A DNA stretch of 25,899 bases from a virus. The position numbers and the translations under genes are program-made. The first letter of the stretch is position 1; each line of letters opens with the position of its first letter. The notes below the pieces were generated by a model. The model saw nothing but the letters and a program-made list of their open reading frames with translations. It had not been told where the DNA came from and searched no databases. Of the stretch, positions 1,163 to 14,217 are shown in pieces. The stretch covers positions 1-25,899 of the IMG/VR virus record IMGVR_UViG_3300036840_000029; one strand, given 5' to 3'.

Positions 1163-2806
1163 TTAAAGCTTGCGGCGGCCGAGCTTGCCGGTCTTGGCCT
1201 GCCGCTTGCCGGTCGCCAGGGCGCGTGAGGTGGCTCGGGTGTACTCGTCCAGCTCGAGGATCGCCTGGGCGGTGGTGGCGTCGTACTCCATGGACACGAT
1301 CCGGAACACGCTCTTGCCGTCCCGGCCAGTGGCGGTGATGGCCTGCGGCGCCGCCGACAGCGGACGGACGCGGATCAGCTCGCCGGCTTTGATCTCCCAC
1401 GGGTGGACCATCCGGCCCGCGGTGAGGTCCTGGATGGGGCGGGCGATCGTCAGCCGGCCCTGTGCGGGCGGTCGGGCGTGCTCGGCAAGGAACTCATCGC
1501 CGGCCTGCTGCGCGTCCGTGGCGTCGGCTGACGCGTCCAGGTCGAGCTTCGTTTCCCGCGTCAGTCCGGCGTCGTCGAGCTCGGTGACCGTCGAGGTGCG
1601 GTGGACGTACACCTTCTGGCCCAGCCCGTCGGTGTAGGAGACGAGCACACCGTTCCACACCTCGTTCGAGCTCGACGGGGCGGAGTATCCGTCGTCGACG
1701 TCGGCTTCGTACCGGACCGTAGTCGGACGTTGCACCCACCGGAACCGGTACTTGCCGTCGGCGTTGGACTCCAGGACCTCCCACCGGAAACCGGGCTCCA
1801 GCTCAGCCATCGCGTCGAAGATGCCGCGGGCGTCGATGCCGTCCGGCCACGCCAGCTCGTTGATCTGGTAGGTGGTGGTTTCGATGACAGCGTTGTCGCC
1901 GTCGAACTCCGGGCACAACCGGCCCACCGCGTCGGCGACCACGACGGAGGCCAGGATCTGCTTGTCCGCCGACGAATATCCGGAGGACTGCTCCGTCCCG
2001 CCCGCGGTGTATGTGGTGGTGCGCATGACGATGTCCTTGAACGACGCCCACACGATGTCGCTGGTGCCCGTTCCCGAAGCGGCGCCCGTCCAGCGGAACT
2101 GAAGGATGGGCCGCGAGTCTCCGAACGCGAACGCGCCGGTGCCGACGATCGCCGTGGACGTGCCACCGCCGCCGGTGCTGGCGGATTGGGTGCGGACCAC
2201 GTTGGTGCCGCTGGAGAACCCGCGTAGCTCCCACGACGCGGAGGTGAGCCCGGCGTCCCAGCTGTAGTCGAAGACGGCCAGGTTCTGGTCGGCGTTCTCG
2301 ATCCCCAGGAAGTACGCGGTGCACGCCCCGTTCGTCGGCACAGTCATCCCGGTCGGGAAGGAGCAGACCAGCGACTGCGACCCCGAGCCGCCCGGATCCT
2401 CACCGGCGGACACCTGCGTGTTCTGCTGCTCGCCCGAGGCTGAGCGGGCTTTGATGAACCCGTCCGGACCGCGGACGATGTGGTACAGCGGGATCGTGCG
2501 GTCGGAGGCATGCGCCATCCCGCCGACGGCGGCGATGCGCCACACCTGCCCGTCGTTGGAGTTCTCGATGCCCAGGTCCTCGACCCGGCCTTCCCACTCG
2601 GCGATGTGGGACAGGCCGTAGATGTAGACCCGGGAGAAGTAGTCGATCTCCTCGGGCATCAGACCCAGCGGGCGGGAGATGGTGAACTCCGCCGAAGCGT
2701 TGCCGCCCAGGTCGATGCGCTTGTACCGCAGGTCCCGCAGCTCGTTGGTGACGTGGATGTCGGTGCGGGACGTCTTGAGCCGCACCGACAACGGGACCGG
2801 GATCAT
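1163..2806 (-). CDS. Minor tail protein, baseplate hub/Tal-like
   Basis: 547 residues. I use the ATG at 2806, which overlaps the TGA of the upstream tail gene (ATGA); the frame stays open upstream to 2941, but that extension is low-complexity Arg/Pro sequence, a shadow of the neighbour's end. The N-terminus (about residues 1-80) resembles tail proteins downstream of Dit, with TISRPLGL followed by DYFSRVYIY and EWEGRVEDLGIE. Residues about 95-260 are Ser/Thr/Gly-rich and beta-like, perhaps a lectin-like insertion. The remainder is mixed alpha/beta with WRWVQ-type strands, ending in a Lys/Arg-rich tail (GKRQAKTGKLGRRKL). No peptidase motif is evident. Position between the lectin-bearing tail gene and the endolysin fits a tail-tip hub protein contacting the host; the precise role is inferred. 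Confidence 0.75.
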   Translation of the reverse strand: MIPVPLSVRLKTSRTDIHVTNELRDLRYKRIDLGGNASAEFTISRPLGLMPEEIDYFSRVYIYGLSHIAEWEGRVEDLGIENSNDGQVWRIAAVGGMAHASDRTIPLYHIVRGPDGFIKARSASGEQQNTQVSAGEDPGGSGSQSLVCSFPTGMTVPTNGACTAYFLGIENADQNLAVFDYSWDAGLTSASWELRGFSSGTNVVRTQSASTGGGGTSTAIVGTGAFAFGDSRPILQFRWTGAASGTGTSDIVWASFKDIVMRTTTYTAGGTEQSSGYSSADKQILASVVVADAVGRLCPEFDGDNAVIETTTYQINELAWPDGIDARGIFDAMAELEPGFRWEVLESNADGKYRFRWVQRPTTVRYEADVDDGYSAPSSSNEVWNGVLVSYTDGLGQKVYVHRTSTVTELDDAGLTRETKLDLDASADATDAQQAGDEFLAEHARPPAQGRLTIARPIQDLTAGRMVHPWEIKAGELIRVRPLSAAPQAITATGRDGKSVFRIVSMEYDATTAQAILELDEYTRATSRALATGKRQAKTGKLGRRKL

Positions 2807-4824
2807 GCCGTTCGGTAGGCGTGCCGGTAGCGGGGGAAGTACTGCACGCCCACGTCGAAGGTGGAGGTTTTGTCGTCGGACACGAGCCCTCCGCCGTTGA
2901 GCAGCATGACGATGCGGTGGTCCTGGTCCGGTCGCAGCCACGGGAACTGCCCGGCCACGGGAATCGCTTCCCGGGCGTAGATGGCCCCGTTGACGTCGAG
3001 GTTGTACACCAGCCCGGCGGAGCCATCAACGTACGTGGAGTTCGGGCCGACGGAGGTGGGCCAGTACACCATGCCGGGCCGGTCGCAGGAGGGGACGAAG
3101 ACGAGCACGTCGAAGTCGACGTTGCCCGAGCCGGACAGCCGCTGCGCGGCGATCGTGAAGATGGTGCCGCGGGCGGGAATCTCCTCACCGGAGGGTCCCA
3201 ACGTGACCGGGTCGGCGCCGACGGGGATCTGCACGTTGCCCATGTACGCCCAGCGCCGCTCGGTGGTGGCGGCCAGGATCACCTCGTCATTGGTGATGGT
3301 GGTGGATCCAGTGTCCTGCCCCAGCCGGACGTGGATGTCGTTGCCGGACACGCTCTTGCGGTACCGCAGGTAAACGTCGTACCTGCCGCGGGCATCCACC
3401 GATGGCGAGCTGGGGAACGCCGAGGACGTCAACCGGGTGGTCATCGTCGACGCGACCGTGGCGAACGAGCAGCGGGCGTAGTTGGAGCCGCTTCCGGACA
3501 TGACGGCGTCATTGCCCGGCAGCGTGGTGTCCGTCCCCAGCGTCATGGACTCGCACTGCAGGAACAGCGGAGCCTGCGACGGCGTCCCCCGCCGCCGCAC
3601 GCCGATGGCGGTGGGGCCCTTGTCCTCGATCTGCGAGTAGGTGAACCGCAGGATCGCCGGCGTGTCCAGATCTCCTTTGATCAGCGAGCCGTCGATGTCC
3701 AGGTAGCAGCCGTTCGACCCGGCGGCGGGATCGTTGGTGACCGTGACCGCGGGGATCATCTGCATCGGTCCGTACCCGGCCGAGTCCGCCGGGATCTCGA
3801 TCATGATTTCGCGCAGGTCGCCGTTGCCGACCACCTCGCGGATCTGATCTGGGCCCGCACGTTTGGTGTGGAAGAACACCGGCTCGTGGCCGGCCGGCTG
3901 CCACAGCAGCCAGTTGCGGGGCCGGTCCAGTTCCCGCCACAACGCCTGCAGCTCATCAGCCCCGCCGTCGCTCGAGGTGAGCTGCAGGCCGAGCCGGATC
4001 ACCCGGTCCTCGTAACTTCCGGCCGAGGTGATCGATCCGTCGGACAGCAGCGTCGACGCGGTCGCGTACCGAAGATCCGGCGGTGACAGGTCGGTGTCGC
4101 GGTCCACCAGGTTCCACGGCGCCGTGTTCAGGTCCAGCCGCTTGGCCACCGCGGATGAGGCGGAGTAGTTGTCGAAGGTGAAGATCGGGTTGACGTTGGT
4201 GTTGCCGGCCTCGCGGGTGGCGCGGATCCCGATCGCGTCGACCGTGGCCAGCATCGTCGCGTCGGTGATCAGTCCGTACACGTCCCAGTCGTCCGGCTCC
4301 GCCGACGCGGCGGCCCACGCCTTGGCCCGGTACCACTGCCCGACCACCCGGGCGCGGATCTTCCAACTGGAACTGGCGGTGTACGAGGAGATGGTCGACG
4401 AGTTGGCGATCACCTGCACTCCGCCGGAGGTGGAGGCCTGGACGACGCGGACGATGAAGTTGCCGGCCGTGTCGAACACCAGCTCCGCCCTCAAGTGGTT
4501 GGAGGTGTCCGTGTAGCGGGCCAGCAGACCCGCCGACATCGACCCGCCGGTAGCCACGGCGGGAACGGTCACGGTGACGGTCTGGTCGGAGTCGGCCACT
4601 TCCATCGACGCCAAGTTCGGGCGTCGGGACACCGACACCGACGTCAGGGTCAGCGACCCCACCCCGGAGCCGACGGCGAAATCGGATGCGGCGCCGCCGT
4701 CGGCGGTCCACGCCTGCCCCGTGTCCGTCGAGCCCCAGCCGTTGGAAGTAGTGCGGCCGAACGCGTCGGTGATGTCGTCGTACACGTCGCCGATGCCGGA
4801 CACGAACGTGACCGTGGTTGTCAT
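2803..4824 (-). CDS. Minor tail protein with N-terminal lectin-like domain and Dit-like region
   Basis: 673 residues; the ATG overlaps the tape measure stop (ATGA), so the two are translationally coupled. Residues about 15-225 look like a concanavalin A/LamG-type beta-sandwich: the DAFGRTTSNGWGSTDTGQAW opening, a GLLARYTDTSNHLRAEL strand pair and a FTFDNYSAS ending are typical of such modules in actinobacterial proteins. From about residue 230 (LDLNTAPWNLVDRD) the protein reads as a distal-tail type scaffold, with SAGSYEDRVIRLGLQL and a WQPAGHEPVFF segment, then further beta domains. The gene immediately after the tape measure normally encodes Dit, the ring that starts the tail tip. A fused carbohydrate-binding module would help contact host wall sugars. 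Domain limits are estimates by eye. Confidence 0.75.
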   Translation of the reverse strand: MTTTVTFVSGIGDVYDDITDAFGRTTSNGWGSTDTGQAWTADGGAASDFAVGSGVGSLTLTSVSVSRRPNLASMEVADSDQTVTVTVPAVATGGSMSAGLLARYTDTSNHLRAELVFDTAGNFIVRVVQASTSGGVQVIANSSTISSYTASSSWKIRARVVGQWYRAKAWAAASAEPDDWDVYGLITDATMLATVDAIGIRATREAGNTNVNPIFTFDNYSASSAVAKRLDLNTAPWNLVDRDTDLSPPDLRYATASTLLSDGSITSAGSYEDRVIRLGLQLTSSDGGADELQALWRELDRPRNWLLWQPAGHEPVFFHTKRAGPDQIREVVGNGDLREIMIEIPADSAGYGPMQMIPAVTVTNDPAAGSNGCYLDIDGSLIKGDLDTPAILRFTYSQIEDKGPTAIGVRRRGTPSQAPLFLQCESMTLGTDTTLPGNDAVMSGSGSNYARCSFATVASTMTTRLTSSAFPSSPSVDARGRYDVYLRYRKSVSGNDIHVRLGQDTGSTTITNDEVILAATTERRWAYMGNVQIPVGADPVTLGPSGEEIPARGTIFTIAAQRLSGSGNVDFDVLVFVPSCDRPGMVYWPTSVGPNSTYVDGSAGLVYNLDVNGAIYAREAIPVAGQFPWLRPDQDHRIVMLLNGGGLVSDDKTSTFDVGVQYFPRYRHAYRTA

Positions 4825-6926: not shown

Positions 6927-7810
6927 TCACCGCCTTTCCGCCTGGAACATCAGAGCTTCCGACTGCGGGGAGTCGTCGTATGGCTTGCGGGCGACGGCCA
7001 CGGCCGTGGCGGCGTGGCAGCGCACCGGCAGGGGGACCCGGTATTCACTGGCCGTGCATTCGGCGATGTCGCGCCCGCACAGCGGGCAGCGGCTGTCGCG
7101 CCACAGCCGAAGGGCGAGCATCCAGCCCCGCTCGGTGGAGTCCCATTCCGACTCGGTCCACGAGCTGACCAGGCGGCTGCCGTCGTGTTCGTGGAAGGTC
7201 CGGGGCACCCAGCCGTCGAACCGCTTCAAGCTGATCCCGAGCGTTTCGGCCGCCTCTACTCGGGCTCGGAGTTCAGGATCTTCGAGGCGGCGTACGAGAA
7301 AGGGATGTCCACGTCCCGCCGGTTCAGCCGCCACGCAGCTGTGTGCAGTTGGTCCTTCTGCCGATGGGTGAGCTTGCCTTCCTCCTCGCCTTCGCCGAGC
7401 AGGACCGCCCAGTCCTCGGCATCCAGTTCCGGCTCGAAGGTCGATGCCTTCACCAGCGCCGGGAAGAAGGTTTCGCTGTTCACCCCGAGGAGCTTGTCGC
7501 GGTCGTGGACGTCGCCGTCCTCGGTGCGGCGGGGAGGGTGCTGCGCCGTCAGCGCCTGCCACCGCTTGTCCGGCATCCCCCGCATGTGGAAGACGACCGT
7601 CGAGGCTTCCATCTCCTCGCGCAGGGCCTCGATCTCCTGCGCGAGTTGGCGGGTGCCTGCGCCGGCCAGGGAGTTGGCCGACTTGCGCTGCGCCTTGTCC
7701 AGGTCGCGTTCCAGCTTTTCGAACTGGGCGACCAGGTCGCCGCGCAGGCAGATCGGCACCGTCTCCTCCGGGAGCCGGGCTTGCTCGTGGATCAGCTTCT
7801 TGGCGTCCAT
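6927..7810 (-). CDS. Tail assembly chaperone GT, -1 frameshift fusion product
   Basis: Made by reading the G frame from 7810 to the slippery heptamer at 7304-7298, slipping back one base and continuing to the TGA at 6929-6927. The product is 294 residues: 171 from G and 123 from the second frame. The second frame has no convincing start of its own, and its upstream part is Arg/Pro-rich nonsense, so the fusion explains it better than a separate gene. The T part holds CPLCGRD, a third Cys and a final RCH (fusion residues about 242, 245, 252, 265-266), likely a zinc-binding knot; it also contains a WVPRTFHEHD stretch. In lambda-type phages G and GT chaperone the tape measure and recruit tail tube subunits. 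The gene sits exactly between the tube and tape measure genes. Confidence 0.88.
7256..7810 (-). CDS. Tail assembly chaperone G
   Basis: 184 residues; ATG at 7810 with a GGAAGGGGC site. It contains a charged coiled-coil region (about residues 28-70, LERDLDKAQRKSA and EIEALREEMEAS), then FHMRGMPDKRW and a largely acidic helical C-terminal half ending KILNSEPE before TAG. Unrecognisable primary sequence with long helices is normal for these chaperones. Identification rests on position (downstream of the major tail protein, upstream of the tape measure) and on the frameshift site 13 codons before its stop. It is the more abundant, unshifted product and is not expected in mature virions. Confidence 0.87.
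   Translation of the reverse strand: MDAKKLIHEQARLPEETVPICLRGDLVAQFEKLERDLDKAQRKSANSLAGAGTRQLAQEIEALREEMEASTVVFHMRGMPDKRWQALTAQHPPRRTEDGDVHDRDKLLGVNSETFFPALVKASTFEPELDAEDWAVLLGEGEEEGKLTHRQKDQLHTAAWRLNRRDVDIPFSYAASKILNSEPE
7298..7304 (-). promoter_or_regulatory. Programmed -1 ribosomal frameshift site (C CCT TTC)
   Basis: On the minus strand the heptamer CCCTTTC is in the canonical X XXY YYZ phase: G-frame codons ATC CCT TTC become CCC TTT after a one-base backward slip. The new frame is open from here to 6927. It lies 13 codons upstream of the G stop, as in the lambda G/GT system. Confidence 0.88.
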
Positions 7811-7878: not shown

Positions 7879-8361
7879 TTATGCGACGACCGCGTCAGGC
7901 TCCGGCGCCGACGTGATCGGGGTGGGGACCTCGTACCGCATGACCGTGTTGGCCTCCGGCGACAGCTCCTTACGCCGGCCGCAGATGATCGGGTACACCT
8001 CGACCTGCTGGCTGGAAGCCCACGCCGTGGTTTCGGCGATGCCGCGGCGGATCACGACGTAACCGGTGGTGCCTCGGGCGAGCAGGGTGCGGACCGGGTC
8101 GGAGCCGACGGTTTGCTTCTTCAAGCGCAGCAGCGTGCCGGAGTACTCGTCACGGCCGATGTTCTTCGTCGAGAACGTCGACGCCAGAGACGTGGTGTCG
8201 ACTTCGGCGGTGGTGGCCTCAAACCCCACCAGCCCGTCGGCGGTTAGTGTGGACTGGAGCAGGGTGCCGGCGTTCAGTTCCGTGGTCGTGGGCGCGGCGA
8301 TGTTGGAAATCGCCGGCACGAACGCGACGCGGACCTGGCCGTCACTGAAGACGTCGGCCAT
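7879..8361 (-). CDS. Major tail (tube) protein
   Basis: 160 residues. The ATG overlaps the previous stop by one base (TGATG). The sequence is beta-rich and typical of short actinophage tube proteins: an N-terminal DGQVRVAFVPAISN strand, then TTTELNAGTLLQ, a G(F/L)xxTTAEVDTTSLAS segment, and RDEYSGTLLRLKKQ. It ends in a Pro/Ala-rich tail. Many copies stack as hexameric rings to form the tail tube around the tape measure. A tail terminator gene lies nearby on one side and the chaperone pair on the other, which fixes the assignment. The hairpin right after the stop suggests its mRNA end is specially treated. Confidence 0.88.
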   Translation of the reverse strand: MADVFSDGQVRVAFVPAISNIAAPTTTELNAGTLLQSTLTADGLVGFEATTAEVDTTSLASTFSTKNIGRDEYSGTLLRLKKQTVGSDPVRTLLARGTTGYVVIRRGIAETTAWASSQQVEVYPIICGRRKELSPEANTVMRYEVPTPITSAPEPDAVVA

Positions 8362-8582
8362 CAGTGATCACTCTCTTTCGGAGATGAGCCGCGTCGCGGC
8401 TTGGTGGTTTCCGCCTGCTGCTGCTCCCGCCACGCGAGCTGCTCCGCGATGGCCGGATTCACCTCCGGCGGCGGAGGATCGGAGGGCTCCCAGCCCTTGG
8501 CCCGCATCTCGTCCACCGCATCCACGGGGCAGTGGAAGTAGCCGCCGGTCTCTTCGTGCCGAAGCCACTGACGCTCAACCAT
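8361..8582 (-). CDS. Small conserved-type structural-region protein, unknown role
   Basis: 73 residues. ATG at 8582 is preceded by an AGGAGG site that overlaps the upstream stop; the frame is open further upstream but that part is Gly/Arg/His nonsense antisense to nothing recognisable. The N-terminal half (WLRHEETGGYFHCPVDAVDEMRAKGWEPSD) looks like a small folded domain in which a substrate or partner could bind through the HETGGYFHCP strand. The C-terminal half is polar and probably disordered (QQQAETTKPRRGSSPKESDH). Proteins of this shape are common beside the major tail protein in actinophages, but I know of no assigned function. One base of overlap couples it to the tube protein gene. Confidence 0.75.
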   Translation of the reverse strand: MVERQWLRHEETGGYFHCPVDAVDEMRAKGWEPSDPPPPEVNPAIAEQLAWREQQQAETTKPRRGSSPKESDH

Positions 8583-8593
8583 GAGTGGCCTCC

Positions 8594-8929
8594 TCAGACC
8601 GGCAGGAGGACGTAGGTGACCGACGTGGTGAACGAATGCGTCACCGTCACCACACCAGTGGCCGTGTTCACCTTGGCCGGGCTGATGTAGATGGCCTTCG
8701 TCGTGCCGTTCGCCACCGCCACCGCCGCCGTCGTGGCCGGGTTCCCGCCCGGGGTGAGACTGGAGTCGGAGACGGTCACGTTGTCCGACGAGCCGCCGCC
8801 GTTGATGACCACCAGCACGGCGCCGCGGGTGCCGAGGATCGCCGAGGAGATGGTGTCGGACGCCGCCACCGCCGCGGGTGTCCATGTGGTGCCCGTGGCG
8901 GTAGGTGTGGTTGCAGTAAGCGCCGCCAT
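8594..8929 (-). CDS. Putative virion surface/decoration-type beta protein
   Basis: 111 residues, using ATG 8929 with GGGAGG seven bases upstream; an in-frame TTG at 8944 would overlap that site and is less likely. The sequence is rich in Thr, Ala, Val and Ser with almost no charged residues: an N-terminal TPTATGTTWTPAAVAASD, then GAVLVVINGGGSSDNVTVSD and TTKAIYISPAKVN. That alternation suggests an all-beta Ig-like or jelly-roll fold. Similar uncharged beta proteins serve as capsid or tail decorations. It resembles in style the decoration-type protein next to the capsid gene (14537-14944), though I see no clear alignment. Location between the tail terminator and tube genes suggests a tail-tube adornment; this is inference. 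Confidence 0.65.
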   Translation of the reverse strand: MAALTATTPTATGTTWTPAAVAASDTISSAILGTRGAVLVVINGGGSSDNVTVSDSSLTPGGNPATTAAVAVANGTTKAIYISPAKVNTATGVVTVTHSFTTSVTYVLLPV

Positions 8930-9373: not shown

Positions 9374-9747
9374 TCGAGGGCCTCGGGGATCAGATCACCC
9401 AGGTACTTGGCGACCCTCGGCAGTTCCTTGTCCGTGGCTGGCGCCATGTGCGGGATCGGCGAGTTGTTGATCGACCCGAATTCGAGCAGGTTCCCGAGCG
9501 CGCCTTGGCGGCGGTTCTTATCCGGGCCGACTTCGAGCTCGACTGAGTCGCCGAACGTTCGGATGTCGTCGGTGATCGACGCCGGGTAGTACGGCGCCGC
9601 CCGCAGTCCGGACACTCGGCGTTTCGCGTCCCGTTTGATGTTGATCGCCGCCCGGACGAGGACCTTACGAACGTCGGGGATCAGGTCGTCGGCGGTCTCA
9701 CCGAGGTCGAACGCCCACTCGTTCAGTTCGCCGACATCAACACTCAT
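9370..9747 (-). CDS. HK97 gp10-like head-tail protein
   Basis: 125 residues; ATGA overlaps at both ends. Hallmarks of the HK97 gp10 family are visible: an N-terminal helix leading to VRKVLVRAAINIKRDAKRRV, then YYPASITDDI, a beta section ELEVGPDK, a GALGNLLEFGS motif and PHMAPATDKELPRVAKYLGDL at the end. The GxLxxLLEFGS...P(H)xP pattern is characteristic. In virions such proteins are head-tail joining or neck components. It sits between the DUF6093-like stopper and the tail terminator, matching the normal order. Confidence 0.88.
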   Translation of the reverse strand: MSVDVGELNEWAFDLGETADDLIPDVRKVLVRAAINIKRDAKRRVSGLRAAPYYPASITDDIRTFGDSVELEVGPDKNRRQGALGNLLEFGSINNSPIPHMAPATDKELPRVAKYLGDLIPEALE

Positions 9748-10136
9748 GAGGTGCGCTCCACGACACCGACCCGCCTCGCCGTTGCATGGGTCTTGTGGGC
9801 CAGCGCCCGGATGACGAACACCCGGTCCACCAGGTCCGGGTCGAGGGATTCGGTGATGACGATCTCGTCTTCGGTGCGCAGCCCGGTTACGGACATGGGG
9901 AGTTGGACTTCGAGGGCGAGCATCAGCGCGTACGCCTCACCGGCCTCAGCCGGGGAAGCGTTGGCGACCCGCTGCTGCACTCGGCACCTTCCGTTGTACA
10001 ACTGGGTGTACGTGGGTGTGACCTCGCCGGTGTTCTCGTCGGTGGTTTCACCGCTGCGCCGCCGGATGACGCAGGTGTCCTGCATGAGGGCTTCGGCGCG
10101 GGCGCGGCCCTGCAGCATCACCGAGGTAGCCGACAT
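9744..10136 (-). CDS. Head-tail stopper-like protein (DUF6093-type)
   Basis: 130 residues starting at ATG 10136 with a good GGGAGG site. An N-terminal helix (GRARAEALMQDTCVIRRRSG) precedes a small beta barrel with YNGRCRVQQR, MLALEVQLPMSVTGLRTEDEIVIT and DRVFVIRALAHKT. This matches the DUF6093-like actinophage proteins that occupy the head-tail stopper position. Stoppers close the channel after packaging and connect the adaptor ring to the tail. Unusually, the adaptor gene that should be next door (13606-14217) lies 3.5 kb away because of the inserted cassette. Confidence 0.78.
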   Translation of the reverse strand: MSATSVMLQGRARAEALMQDTCVIRRRSGETTDENTGEVTPTYTQLYNGRCRVQQRVANASPAEAGEAYALMLALEVQLPMSVTGLRTEDEIVITESLDPDLVDRVFVIRALAHKTHATARRVGVVERTS

Positions 10137-10145
10137 CGCACCTCC

Positions 10146-12080
10146 CTACGGCCGTGTGGTGACCCCTGCGAACGGACGCGTGGTGACAGCGGACCCGGGG
10201 CGGGCAGTGGTCGCGCCTGACGGTCGGGCTGTCGTTCCGACGCTTGGGCGTGTGGTGGTGCCGGTGTCGGGTCGCGGAACGAGGTCGCCGAACGACGACC
10301 CGACCGCCGAGGCGGTCAGCACGAACACCGCGGCTGCGGAGCCGGCGACAGGGCTCACGCCGATTGCCGTGGCGGTGAGCGTCAGGATTGCGGCTGCGGC
10401 ACCGGGCGTTGCGCGGGTCCCGACGGCGGTCGCCGTCAGCGTCAGGGCTGCTGCCGCTGTACCGGCAGCGGTGCGAGCGCCGGCAGCGGCGGACGTCAGC
10501 GTGAAGGTCGCGACGGCTGCGCCGGAGGTGGCGCGCGTCCCAACCGCGGCGGCGGTGAGCGCGTTCTGGGCGACCGCAGAACCCGAGGTGGTTCGGGCGC
10601 CGGACGCCGTAGCAGTGAACGCCAACCCAGCTGCGGCCGCACCGGGTGTGGTCCTGCTACCAACAGATGTTGCGGTGAGCGCGAACGCCGCCGCGGCGGT
10701 GCCATTGACGGTGGCGCCGGCGGGCGGGTTGTTGACGTCGTCGTACTCGGCGAAGTTGTCCGTGCCCGACGTTCTGTGCGCTTCGAGGATCAGGGCCAGA
10801 TTCTGGTCCGACACCCATGCTGGGGACGTCTCCGAGCGCAGCTGCGTCCAACTGGCGCCGTTGGGGGATGCCTCCCAGTACAGCGTCCCGGCGGTTTCGC
10901 GTAGCCGCAGCCACGCATGGTCCGTCGCCGAATACGACGGGAACAACGCCCCGCCGTCGCTGAATCCGACCCGCAGGTACACGCCGATAACTCCGGCGCC
11001 GGAATCGATAAGGAACCCTGCGTCCGTTCCCGCCGTGCTCGAGGTGACGAGCAGGGAGCAGTACGCCCCGTCCGACGCCCCACCCGACGGTGGGTAGATG
11101 CGCGCCAACGCGTGCGAGCCAGCCAGGTGGTAGACGGAGCCGGACTTGTAGGCGGACCACTGGCCGGTGTCGCAGTCGACGCGGGCCCGCCCGCCCGTCT
11201 CCGCCACCGAGCCGTAGTTGGCGGGCCATTTCGTTGTGTCGATCGAATCGTCGTCGAAGTCGTCGACCAGGGCGGCCATCGGCGACGACACCGTCCCCGA
11301 CCCTGTAGCTGTCAGGGTGAACGACGCCGACCCGGTACCGCTCGTTGTTCTGGTGCCGGCTGCGGTGGAGGTGAGCGCGAACGCCGCCGCACCGGAGCCG
11401 GTGACCGTTGCCGCCGCCGACAGGAGCTCGGCGTGCAACGCCACGATGCTCGAGGTGATGCTGTTGGTGACGGTGAACGTGTCCCCGCCGTAATTCCCCG
11501 CGCTCGAGATGAGACGGTAGGCGGCGGCCATCCGCACGTTCTGGTTGCCGGTGGTCCGGTTCGTCGCGTGATCCCCGGACGTCGGCTCCGTGTACGTGCC
11601 CGGCGGTGTCCACCCGTTCGGGATGGTGCCTGAAGCGACCCGGCCGTGCAGGTGCACGACAAGCGCTGAGCCGTTCAGCACCCCGGTCAGCGACGAGATG
11701 TTGACTGAGGTGGCGGATGCTGACGCTACGCCCGATTGGCCGATCGGATCACCCGAGGCGACACCGCGGTGGATGGTCATCGTCCATCCGCCGGTGATCG
11801 ACCCGGAGTAGCCGATCGTCGGCGCGCCGTCGCCGCCTTGCAGGACCCGGAACCAGAAGTTCGCCCTGCTAGCGGTGCCCTGGGTTTGCGGGTTGGTGAC
11901 GCCGTCGATGGCGGTCCAGTCGCCCATCCCGGAGTTGACGGTGATTGAGTTGCCGCCGTAGTGGGTCGACAGGATCGCTACGTCGCCGGCCGCCCACGAC
12001 CCGTGGAAGCTCGTGGCAAGTGAGGTGGCGGTGGCTGATCCGGTGCTGCCGTTGGTGGCGCCGACGAACGTGACCGCCAC
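10146..12080 (-). CDS. Repeat-containing virion fibre protein with lectin-like domain and Arg-Pro tail
   Basis: 644 residues; GTG start with a near-perfect GGAGGTGA site. Residues 1-222 form a beta-rich domain (SWAAGDVAILSTHYGG, GGWTMTIHRGVASGDP). Two 20-residue Ala/Thr repeats follow (227-266, pattern GxAxAxFxLTATAxGTRTT). Then comes a concanavalin A/LamG-like domain (about 270-450, opening DDFDDDSIDTTKW) and seven more 20-residue repeats (459-598). The last 44 residues are six 8-residue units carrying Arg-Pro at 603, 611, 619, 627, 635 and 643, so the protein ends on a repeat. This looks like a surface fibre with sugar-binding module and elastic linkers. The position between head adaptor and stopper genes suggests a head or neck attachment rather than tail tip. 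I know no protein with this exact layout. Confidence 0.8.
   Translation of the reverse strand: MAVTFVGATNGSTGSATATSLATSFHGSWAAGDVAILSTHYGGNSITVNSGMGDWTAIDGVTNPQTQGTASRANFWFRVLQGGDGAPTIGYSGSITGGWTMTIHRGVASGDPIGQSGVASASATSVNISSLTGVLNGSALVVHLHGRVASGTIPNGWTPPGTYTEPTSGDHATNRTTGNQNVRMAAAYRLISSAGNYGGDTFTVTNSITSSIVALHAELLSAAATVTGSGAAAFALTSTAAGTRTTSGTGSASFTLTATGSGTVSSPMAALVDDFDDDSIDTTKWPANYGSVAETGGRARVDCDTGQWSAYKSGSVYHLAGSHALARIYPPSGGASDGAYCSLLVTSSTAGTDAGFLIDSGAGVIGVYLRVGFSDGGALFPSYSATDHAWLRLRETAGTLYWEASPNGASWTQLRSETSPAWVSDQNLALILEAHRTSGTDNFAEYDDVNNPPAGATVNGTAAAAFALTATSVGSRTTPGAAAAGLAFTATASGARTTSGSAVAQNALTAAAVGTRATSGAAVATFTLTSAAAGARTAAGTAAAALTLTATAVGTRATPGAAAAILTLTATAIGVSPVAGSAAAVFVLTASAVGSSFGDLVPRPDTGTTTRPSVGTTARPSGATTARPGSAVTTRPFAGVTTRP
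10149..10280 (-). repeat. 24-bp tandem repeats encoding TTxRPxxx units
   Basis: Six in-phase degenerate 24-bp units encode an 8-residue period with Arg-Pro at fixed positions, up to the last two residues of the 644-residue protein. The DNA copies have diverged, so protein spacing rather than sequence identity seems selected. Confidence 0.85.
10287..10706 (-). repeat. Seven 60-bp repeats encoding 20-residue Ala/Thr units
   Basis: Seven consecutive, gap-free 60-bp units encode residues 459-598 of the fibre protein. Each contains a short Ala-rich strand, an LTAT/LTSA core and a G(T/A/S)R(T/A)T turn. Two further units of the same type lie at 11283-11402, before the lectin-like domain. Confidence 0.88.
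11283..11402 (-). repeat. Two 60-bp repeats of the same family, upstream of the lectin-like domain
   Basis: These encode residues 227-266 (TGSGAAAFALTSTAAGTRTT and the unit after it). They match the seven-unit array at 10287-10706, so the lectin-like domain interrupts a repeat array. Confidence 0.8.
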
Positions 12081-12093
12081 GGGTCACCTCCGT

Positions 12094-12483
12094 CTAGCTG
12101 GCGACGCCGAGTGAGACGTCCAAATCCCCGATAGCCCAGGTGGCCGTATCACCGGAGACGAGTGCGTTTTGGGTGACGGTGCCGGAGAACAGGAAGTTCC
12201 CCGACGTGGAGGCGTCCCAGGCGGAGAAGTGGGTCCAGTCCTCGCTGCCCGACACGCCCGTCCAGGTCAGCGCGACGGTGTTGGCGATGGCCCCACCGGA
12301 TGCGGCGGAGCCGAAGGTGGCCTGCTTGCGGGTGGTTTCCGCCGCCGCGTTCGAGGTGCCGGCGGCGCCGGGGTCACCTACGTGCGGTTTGATCCACACT
12401 TCTGCGGGTTCGGACCATGCGACGGAGCGGCACAGCGCGTCGAGGATCGCGTTAGCGGTCGCCGCGGCGAACCCTACAGCCAT
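12094..12483 (-). CDS. Fibre-like virion protein
   Basis: 129 residues; ATG 12483 follows the glycosidase-like stop after a GGAGG site. The sequence matches a common actinophage structural family: an N-terminal helix (ANAILDALCRSV), then EVWIKPHVGDPGAAGTSNAAAETTRKQATFG, and a Trp-containing beta half (VALTWTGVSGSEDWTHFSAWD, ATWAIGDLDVSLG). The xVWIKLHxGDPGxxGTxNxAxExTR pattern is often annotated as phage tail-fibre or structural protein. It probably forms a trimeric or surface-exposed beta structure that presents or anchors the next protein. Its location between the glycosidase-like and repeat-protein genes suggests all three form one virion appendage. Confidence 0.75.
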   Translation of the reverse strand: MAVGFAAATANAILDALCRSVAWSEPAEVWIKPHVGDPGAAGTSNAAAETTRKQATFGSAASGGAIANTVALTWTGVSGSEDWTHFSAWDASTSGNFLFSGTVTQNALVSGDTATWAIGDLDVSLGVAS

Positions 12484-12484
12484 G

Positions 12485-13333
12485 TCAGCCTCCGTACTGC
12501 GCGATGAGGTCCGTCAGCGCCTTCTTCTCCGGCGCCCGGGTGTCGAGGTTGTCGCCGCCCCGGTAGAACCAAGCCAGCGCGCGGGCTTCCGGCTGTGCGG
12601 CGAAGTAGGTGGCGTGTTCGCGCATGCGTTGCGCGCACAGCGAGCCCGTGTCGTCCGACGCGATCCGCTCAATGCCCCACTCGGCCACCACCAGCGGTTT
12701 GCCGTGCTGCCGTGCATGCGCGAGGGCGAAGCCGAACATGTTCGACGCGGTCCGGTACGCCTGGGTGGAGTTGTTGTAGATGTCAAACCCGACCGTGTCC
12801 ACACCGTCGAACCCGGACACGACACCGAAGTCGCCGTACCAGCTCGCAGCCCGAGATCCGCGGGTCGCCGCGTACTCGGTGTACACCGGCGTCAGCATGA
12901 CCTCACCGCGACGCGGATGGCCTGCCAGCGCGGCGGTCAGTTCCCGCCACTCGGCCCGGTACTCCGCCGGGGCGGGGTCTCCGGAGTCCTGCTGTTCCGG
13001 TTCGTGATCCAACGTCAGGTAGAACGGAGTCCGCCGGTTCGTCGGTCTCGAGGTGAGCCATCCAGCGACGTTGACCGGCCACGTTTTGAACGAGACGTGC
13101 AACGTCACATCAGCACCGACCATCGGCAGGATCCCTGACGTCCACGACGGAAGGGTCGTCTTGGAGTACAGCCGTACCAGCTTCGTGCCGGGAAACTTGG
13201 CCAGCATGGGACCGAGCTGCGCAACGGTCGAGTCGGGCGGACACCAGCCGACTAGCAGTTTCGCAGGGGCTTGCGCCGAGTAGCTGACCTGCCGGCCGTC
13301 CGCCAACCGGAGACGGCCGGTGAACGTGGTCAT
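12485..13333 (-). CDS. TIM-barrel glycoside-hydrolase-like protein (GH26/clan A style)
   Basis: 282 residues; I use ATG 13333, overlapping the upstream TGA (ATGA), rather than the open extension to 13399. After an N-terminal leader, strand LLVGWCPPD begins a barrel. The rest shows barrel strands with FYLTLDHEPEQ, placing Glu111 after His110 like the acid/base position of clan A enzymes, and PLVVAEWGIER, placing Glu218 like the nucleophile. Between them lie GEVMLTPVY and VDTVGFDIYN. The two Glu at strand ends are what one expects from mannanase/cellulase-like retaining enzymes. No signal peptide is visible, so the enzyme would reach the outside as part of the virion or after lysis. Substrate is unknown; host wall or capsule polysaccharide is a guess. 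Confidence 0.75.
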   Translation of the reverse strand: MTTFTGRLRLADGRQVSYSAQAPAKLLVGWCPPDSTVAQLGPMLAKFPGTKLVRLYSKTTLPSWTSGILPMVGADVTLHVSFKTWPVNVAGWLTSRPTNRRTPFYLTLDHEPEQQDSGDPAPAEYRAEWRELTAALAGHPRRGEVMLTPVYTEYAATRGSRAASWYGDFGVVSGFDGVDTVGFDIYNNSTQAYRTASNMFGFALAHARQHGKPLVVAEWGIERIASDDTGSLCAQRMREHATYFAAQPEARALAWFYRGGDNLDTRAPEKKALTDLIAQYGG

Positions 13334-13596
13334 TCCGGCCGGGCGATGTACCGGGCCGTACCGGCCACGTAGTCGGCCGACACCAGCTCGACCTCCCACC
13401 CGTCAGCTTCGGGCATACCGAAGTCGCCGCGTCGCTCCGGACCGGTGCCGGCGAACGTGAACGGGATCATCCCGGCGAGTTTCCCGGCGCCGCTGAACGA
13501 CGGGCCGGATTCGCGCATCGGCCCGTCGTCCACGGCCAGGGTCATGCCCAGCGAGCCGTCCGGGCCGTACTCGTCATCGATGTGCAGGACTGCCAT
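13330..13596 (-). CDS. Unknown small protein of virion cassette
   Basis: 88 residues; ATG 13596 with GAGGAGC site just after the adaptor stop; the stop overlaps the glycosidase-like start (ATGA), so the two are probably co-translated. It contains strands VLHIDDEYGPDGSLGMTLAVDD, an FAGTG turn and a C-terminal EVELVSADYVAGTARYIARPE. The composition is acidic with Gly-rich turns, suggesting a small beta domain. I do not recognise a family. Coupling to the glycosidase-like gene suggests a partner or attachment subunit for it, which is inference only. Confidence 0.7.
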   Translation of the reverse strand: MAVLHIDDEYGPDGSLGMTLAVDDGPMRESGPSFSGAGKLAGMIPFTFAGTGPERRGDFGMPEADGWEVELVSADYVAGTARYIARPE

Positions 13597-13605
13597 CGGC
13601 GCTCC

Positions 13606-14217
13606 TCACGGGACGGGCACGCTGTACGCGCGGGACACGACCAGCGGGACGGAGCCCGGTGGCCGGCCGTACTGCTTGCGCAGCGCCTTGGACATGAACT
13701 CGGTGACCTGCGAGGCCATCGCCTCGTACGCCACCTGGTAGTCGTCGATCGCCTCGCGCACCGCGCCGGACGGGTTGGCGTAGAAACCCTTCGCCAACGA
13801 CAGGCACATGCTGCGGGCGAGCTGCAGCTTCTGATGCCCGACCGGGTAGCCGTGGGTGTTGGTGACAGTGACGGTGGATGGCTGGTCGAAGTAGCCGACC
13901 AGCGTCGAACGCCACCCGTCGGCCCGCCACAGGCTTCCCCGAGACAGTTGCGCCGAGTAGTCCGTGACCGCGGTGGCGCCGATCAGCACCGAATCCACCG
14001 CGGTCACGGGACGTTCCGGCAGGTACAGGTACGGACCCGCGTCGTACCCGTCCAGGTCCAGCTCGATCTCGTCGTCCACGACCTGGACGATCCGCTGACC
14101 GACCTCGGCCTGGATGATGGCGGTGGCCATCTCCAGCACCAGGTTGGCGGTGGACGCGTCGAGGTCCTGCTGCAGCAGGGATGCGAGGTCCTCCGGTTCG
14201 GCGAACTTGTCGGCCAT
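13606..14217 (-). CDS. Head-tail adaptor (connector) protein, HK97 gp6-like
   Basis: 203 residues; ATG 14217, GAAGGCGAGG site. Signs of the adaptor family: an N-terminal helix pair (FAEPEDLASLLQQDLDASTA, NLVLEMATAIIQAEVGQ), the strand EIELDLDGYDAGPYLYLPERPV followed by TAVDSVLIG, and the NTHGYP turn followed by QLARSMCLSLAKGFYANP helices. Residue order (helices, LPERPVT, V-x-TNTHGYP, helices) is characteristic. Twelve copies would bind the portal and form the landing ring for the stopper. Here the downstream neighbour is a foreign-looking cassette rather than the stopper. Confidence 0.88.
   Translation of the reverse strand: MADKFAEPEDLASLLQQDLDASTANLVLEMATAIIQAEVGQRIVQVVDDEIELDLDGYDAGPYLYLPERPVTAVDSVLIGATAVTDYSAQLSRGSLWRADGWRSTLVGYFDQPSTVTVTNTHGYPVGHQKLQLARSMCLSLAKGFYANPSGAVREAIDDYQVAYEAMASQVTEFMSKALRKQYGRPPGSVPLVVSRAYSVPVP

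Follow-up and report, generated by a model that had tools for sequence, protein, structure and literature searches.

A four-gene cassette occupies the junction between the head-tail adaptor gene and the head-to-tail stopper gene in a 25.9 kb stretch of phage DNA (the window: positions 1 to 25,899 of IMG/VR virus record IMGVR_UViG_3300036840_000029), and junctions filled in this way in its relatives share a repeat protein that ends in a short tag of RPxxGxxx-type octapeptides. The junction is best explained, with a probability of about 0.56, as an accessory appendage locus in which the C-terminal tag would dock interchangeable adhesin or depolymerase proteins at the head-tail connector. The association of tag and slot is the solid and surprising part of this result, and the mechanism that we infer from it is testable. 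An earlier note on this DNA, made from the sequence alone, had described the cassette. The present analysis goes beyond it in two points: contents of many kinds are exchanged at this junction generally, and what stays constant among them is the RPxxG tag at the C-terminus.

The window covers the structural genes of a siphophage of actinobacterial type, read on the minus strand in the order terminase, portal, protease, scaffold, capsid, adaptor, cassette, stopper, tail completion, major tail protein, tail assembly chaperone and tape measure. The adaptor gene (13606..14217, minus strand; phrog_442, E 3.5e-19) is the upstream border of the slot, and the DUF6093 stopper gene (9744..10136, minus strand; PF19586, E 1.8e-35) is the downstream border. 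The four genes between them, all on the minus strand and placed as first described, encode an 88-residue small protein (13330..13596), a TIM-barrel glycosidase-like protein of 282 residues (12485..13333), a Gp80-family protein of 129 residues (12094..12483), and a 644-residue protein with a head, a lectin-like domain, a repeat stalk and the C-terminal tag (10146..12080). The gaps from the adaptor through the cassette to the stopper are 9, -4, 1, 13 and 9 bases.

Adaptor and stopper genes are normally neighbours, as had been supposed, in cultured and environmental relatives alike. Among cultured phages, a 4-base overlap of the two genes is seen in Dubu (Streptomyces), AGM1 (Brevibacterium), and Faja and Hum25 (Arthrobacter); the Dubu overlap rests on annotation, and the window profiles do not match the Dubu stopper. 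Environmental relatives were sampled by capsid protein, blind to the junction, and both genes were called in 35 of them. The genes touch or overlap in 28/35 and are separated by 1.1-3.2 kb in 7/35. In the four nearest relatives, whose capsid proteins are 83-87% identical, the junction is always filled, though by different genes. Filled junctions appear in a few places on the capsid tree (4 changes by parsimony, 1 forced), and the stopper tree gives 4 changes by parsimony with 2 forced. These trees indicate that the slot is mostly inherited filled, with its contents turning over. Many independent insertions were considered and rejected: the trees do not force them, and filled junctions cluster and mainly exchange their contents.

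The earlier note had proposed comparative synteny as a check on the cassette as a unit, and a small beta gene, a glycosidase gene and a repeat protein gene were indeed found together in several divergent loci. The full order of small beta gene, glycosidase, Gp80 and tagged repeat protein is repeated in locus L116. The order is 88-residue homologue, glycosidase, other small gene and repeat protein in L119; small gene, Ig-like gene, glycosidase and repeat protein in L151; and small gene, glycosidase and repeat protein in L009, an order also present in Micromonospora rubida (L122, a prophage of strain NEAU-HG-1). The enzyme version is clearly diverged in L116 and L119. The recurrence of this order in variants indicates that the four-gene unit is real and that its parts can be swapped.

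The tag occupies residues 603-644 of the window's 644-residue protein (10149..10274, minus strand) and consists of five octapeptides and a final RP: RPDTGTTT-RPSVGTTA-RPSGATTA-RPGSAVTT-RPFAGVTT-RP. The tag was found in 7/7 filled and 0/28 empty junctions of the capsid-sampled set, and in 12/12 filled and 0/31 empty junctions after loci fetched by stopper similarity were added (Fisher p 6.5e-11 if every locus is counted as independent). Both samples were chosen blind to the tag. The whole records of the empty relatives held no tandem 24-base-spaced tag among the matches listed. Two exceptions to the -RP ending are L149, which closes with -NRCC after its repeats, and L024, which closes with -WP.

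The same association was seen from the side of the tag. Two location-blind scans of 2.9 million IMG/VR viral contigs used the tag pattern only (two octapeptides, RP and a stop codon); each listed exactly 30 stretches, and their counts are samples and lower bounds. In the first scan, 21 of the 30 stretches were real open reading frame (ORF) ends, and an adaptor or stopper adjoins 20 of these 21; the remaining ORF (L110) is a contig-edge copy of the L114 tag. In the second, 28 of 30 were real ORF ends, 27 of them next to an adaptor or stopper, and the remaining ORF (L160) has only a Gp80 gene and a tape measure nearby. Together the scans gave at least 49 tagged ORFs (21 + 28), and 47/49 have an adaptor and/or stopper match alongside. 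The non-coding matches of the first scan served as background: none adjoins an adaptor or stopper, and one has a neck-profile match (L103). Counted by distinct protein, 48/49 tagged proteins outside the window come from loci that also match the adaptor or stopper. A family of bacterial chromosomes was rejected as the source, because the pattern gave 16 matches in 394 genomes of Micromonospora rubida's class, none at a tag-like ORF end, as is expected of chance matches. A tblastn search of cultured phages with a synthetic tag peptide gave no match, a null that is uninformative because of low-complexity masking. No description of the tag or the slot was found in the literature searched, which leaves most subscription journals outside.

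The constant part of these proteins is the tag. The 50 distinct tagged proteins carry 2-5 octapeptides with the consensus RP[FSNYD][TSA]G[TVI][TV]x, and nearly all have stalk repeats of 18-23 residues. Their heads fall into about 27 unrelated clusters, an approximate number with some heads truncated. In an alignment of 22 tagged proteins, invariant or nearly invariant columns occur in the C-terminal tag only. The third positions of the conserved R/P/G codons of the tag agree at 0.40, compared with 0.37 by chance. Synonymous positions are thus saturated with the residues kept, and selection therefore acts on the protein. A role of the tag in the DNA or RNA, as a site, hairpin or coupling signal, was rejected on the same ground of free third positions. 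Alternatively, the tag might have no special function and be just a 3-prime end that is conserved because it is inherited together with the stopper gene, while recombination in the repeats swaps the 5-prime part. The concentration of tagged loci in one stopper clade would suit this account, which is nevertheless extremely improbable, as saturated third positions with kept residues mark purifying selection and not recent hitchhiking. The PxTG look of the octapeptides also suggested a sortase (LPxTG) cell-wall substrate; this was rejected on inspection of the sequences, since such a substrate has a signal peptide and continues after LPxTG into a membrane helix and a basic tail, and the tagged proteins end at -RP with nothing after it.

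The repeat/lectin description of the 644-residue protein held up on closer analysis. Residues 1-224 (11409..12080, minus strand) form a minor-tail-type beta domain, modelled by AlphaFold2 (AF2) as one block with predicted local distance difference test (pLDDT) values mostly of 60-88. Its BFVD matches include Mycobacterium phage minor tail proteins, and a PDB fold search with the model gave no informative match. Residues 268-455 (10716..11279, minus strand) form a lectin-like domain with Streptomyces phage homologues, about 42-46% identical to Hiyaa gp13, Kromp gp22 and Ponzi gp58. Ponzi gp58 (L126:4048-6531), which has this lectin-like domain, is a tail-module glycoside hydrolase by annotation. 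Residues 456-600 (10281..10715, minus strand) form a stalk of 20-residue repeats (autocorrelation 0.52 at period 20).

The tag directly continues this beta-repeat stalk with a period of its own, and its octapeptides have a strand-turn look (GTTxR, then PxTG). It could accordingly be a folding or capping end of the stalk, such as a trimerisation clamp, with attachment through another part of the protein or through the small partners. This is very unlikely: stalked repeat proteins encoded upstream of the adaptor do without the tag, and the heads and partners are too varied to serve as a shared attachment part.

These upstream cassettes also separate the tag from the cassette itself. The same glycosidase and repeat-protein family lies upstream of the adaptor in L010 and L011, where the N-terminal domain is clearly homologous and the RP tag is absent. 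A related set upstream of the adaptor in L008 has a repeat protein that ends differently, without the RP tag, and Streptomyces phage Hiyaa gp12-gp13, which precede the adaptor, have no RP tag either. The cases are few and all point in one direction, and as gene arrangements they argue that the tag goes with the slot and not with the cassette. The tag would therefore match something at the junction, most simply a docking surface on the adaptor or stopper. L010 and L173 (IMGVR_UViG_2622736592_000004 and _000003) have contig names that suggest two proviruses in one isolate genome: L010 has the untagged glycosidase/repeat cassette before the adaptor, and in L173 the slot between adaptor and stopper is filled and its repeat protein is tagged.

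In the docking explanation, one group of actinobacterial siphophages would use the junction as a locus for accessory appendages. Its filled copies each encode a single protein in three parts: an outer domain that varies, a beta-repeat stalk with units of 18-23 residues, and, as the constant element, a C-terminal tag of two to five octapeptides with the -RP end. Most copies also encode at least one small partner, usually rich in beta structure, and some a glycosidase. The protein would be docked through its tag on a conserved part of the connector surface, for which the adaptor or stopper from the flanking genes is the likeliest candidate; genes in head-neck-tail modules tend to be ordered as their products are placed in the virion. 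The variable part would face outward, bind host surface polysaccharide and, where a glycosidase is present, degrade it. The argument is that the constant part should be the attachment part, and that this is the C-terminal tag; with attachment residing in the tag, outer domains and partners would be freely exchangeable. The earlier note had taken the set for a neck or head appendage with polysaccharide-degrading activity. The linked cassette of structural-type genes stands, and a structural role in the virion is strongly implied for its proteins; attachment at the neck or head, sugar binding and enzyme activity are predictions of this explanation. A broader proposal, in which the RPxxGxxx tag is a general connector-docking address of actinobacterial siphophages, sufficient to mount any stalked protein with the junction as the exchange site, falls short of even odds.

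An appendage of the same type could instead be docked on the capsid as a head fibre or decoration, with the tag binding the major capsid protein or a decoration protein. The Gp80 family is labelled 'head protein' by PHROGs, the cassette genes lie directly 3' of the capsid genes, and the analogous pair of Hiyaa lies between capsid and adaptor genes. However, the tag tracks the junction, and many tagged loci match the window's adaptor and stopper profiles but not its capsid profile. Chain-like fibres also occur at the neck in Ralstonia podophage GP4, where the fibre is anchored to the 15-fold adaptor. Comparable chain fibres at the neck are described for Anabaena phage A-1(L) (PMC10966104). Capsid docking is rather unlikely. 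The cassette products could also be tail fibre or minor tail proteins that assemble at the tail tip, with their genes merely displaced; the N-terminal and lectin-like domains are indeed known from proteins annotated as minor tail and from genes of the tail module. This is unlikely. Downstream of the tape measure the window already has tail genes of its own, one of them for a phosphodiesterase-like protein; dozens of loci keep the junction as the site although its contents vary; and the tie between tag and stopper would be left unexplained.

Several points weigh against connector docking as we present it. The stalk, the lectin-like domain and the tag are without a confident predicted structure. 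A search of 50,697 phage records, in which the low-complexity filter may mask the tag, turned up no phage with a tagged protein. One stopper clade holds most of the tagged loci (18/23 rows, support 95/93), so that the origins are few (tree-forced minimum 1-2, parsimony 4) and the p-value overstates the independence of the loci. Sugar binding is not assured, because a distal carbohydrate module of the A-1(L) neck fibre did not bind the host (PMC10966104).

The proposed appendage resembles the lactococcal neck passage structures and the neck fibres of A-1(L) and GP4; its anchor is at the opposite end and is unrelated to theirs by the searches run. The lactococcal structure sits at the head-tail connector, combines a conserved attachment part with carbohydrate-binding groups that can be exchanged, is present in 73 of 113 phages of the 936 group and is dispensable in TP901-1 (PMC6669499). 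In 936 phages and TP901-1, as here, the appendage is optional and comes in exchangeable groups; a connector location is predicted here from the gene positions. The constant part of the lactococcal protein is its first ~180 residues (a BppU-like ring) and the variable part is C-terminal, whereas the constant part of the window type is a short C-terminal tag; no conserved N-terminal attachment domain of ~180 residues was found across the 22 aligned tagged proteins. The A-1(L) fibres are described as small repeated beads with a terminal carbohydrate module (PMC10966104). Like those of A-1(L) and GP4, the appendage would be a multi-protein fibre, and one of the cassette genes encodes a member of the family of GP4 fibre I (PF23140). 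In A-1(L), the N-terminal domain of gp82 attaches to the 15-fold ring, the fibre genes lie far from the other structural genes, and an RPxxG tag is not described in the text available (PMC10966104); the window has a C-terminal tag and a cassette inside the structural region. Hiyaa gp12-gp13 is the closest cultured analogue, with a small protein followed by an 1110-residue protein in the head-neck gene region. Hiyaa gp13 shares the lectin-like domain, and its C-terminal half is repetitive. The pair differs in its position before the adaptor, its different short terminal repeat and the lack of a glycosidase, and is annotated as minor tail protein only.

Neck and head appendages are poorly understood and are mostly recognised by microscopy only. 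A short C-terminal signature makes appendages countable in metagenomes and predicts which orphan genes encode virion surface proteins, and the tag is a directly testable docking peptide. If docking is true, phages would swap adhesins and depolymerases without re-evolving the attachment, away from the usual tail tip.

The ATGA coupling of the first two cassette genes and the separate ribosome sites of the others, both noticed earlier, were confirmed: the glycosidase ATG at 13333 overlaps the stop codon of the 88-residue gene, and a GGAGG-like site precedes each of the 129-residue, 644-residue and stopper genes. Because of this overlap, the glycosidase most likely starts at ATG 13333 (282 residues) rather than at GTG 13399; residues 1-19 of the longer ORF, open from GTG 13399, are disordered in the model. 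The AF2 model (pLDDT 85) predicts an eight-stranded barrel. Its closest solved structures belong to glycoside hydrolase family 26 (GH26), the top one being a GH26 lichenase (Z 20.4, root-mean-square deviation 3.5, 243 aligned; VIA-align), and the model thus supports the glycosidase-like fold first suggested. Two motifs, H-E-P-E following strand 4 and E-W-G within strand 7, are unchanged in six aligned homologues. The eight-strand TIM barrel is that of GH26 and clan GH-A enzymes, whose two catalytic glutamates stand at these same strands. The invariant glutamates E133/E135 and E240 (304-residue numbering) lie at the expected strands and are candidates for the catalytic pair; in contrast, the identity to solved GH26 structures is about 14%. 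No Pfam GH26 match was obtained, and the sole Pfam match (PF11790, 17.8 bits) is below the cut-off of 21; the protein is accordingly filed as a GH-A-type fold nearest GH26 and not as a GH26 member. It had no tblastn match in phage records, and its matches in the genome collection were in two loci only, both Micromonospora rubida.

The 129-residue protein had been called fibre-like, and this is well founded: it matches PF23140/phrog_240 (E 2.9e-28 and 2.3e-29; 99.2 bits against a PF23140 cut-off of 27, residues 5-124 of 129), and this Gp80 family is fibre I of GP4. It also matches PDB 8jou_a (E 3.1e-11), from the solved virion structure 8jou. The commonest small partner in tagged cassettes is phrog_644 (~150 residues; L009:7495-7950 and 12 other loci), which seems to replace the Gp80-family protein there. 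Homologues of the 88-residue protein lie immediately 5' of the glycosidase in L008 and L119, and unrelated small Ig-like genes occupy this position in L116 and L151. Inside the 88-residue gene, a strong imperfect palindrome (13480-13545) folds as an RNA hairpin of -42.2 kcal/mol (z -5.0); it was rejected as a conserved element, as the L008 and L119 homologues have no strong counterpart at that position.

Three other observations were made in the window. A 174-residue gene between the terminator and the major tail protein (8361-8885) is almost without relatives, and two side-by-side ORFs in L015 match it. The tail-assembly-chaperone ORFs (7256-7810 and 6927-7562) overlap in the layout usual for a programmed frameshift. 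The tail gene 3' of the tape measure (2803-4824) encodes a protein whose first 200 residues resemble the C-terminal end of a phage phosphodiesterase family (phrog_24476).

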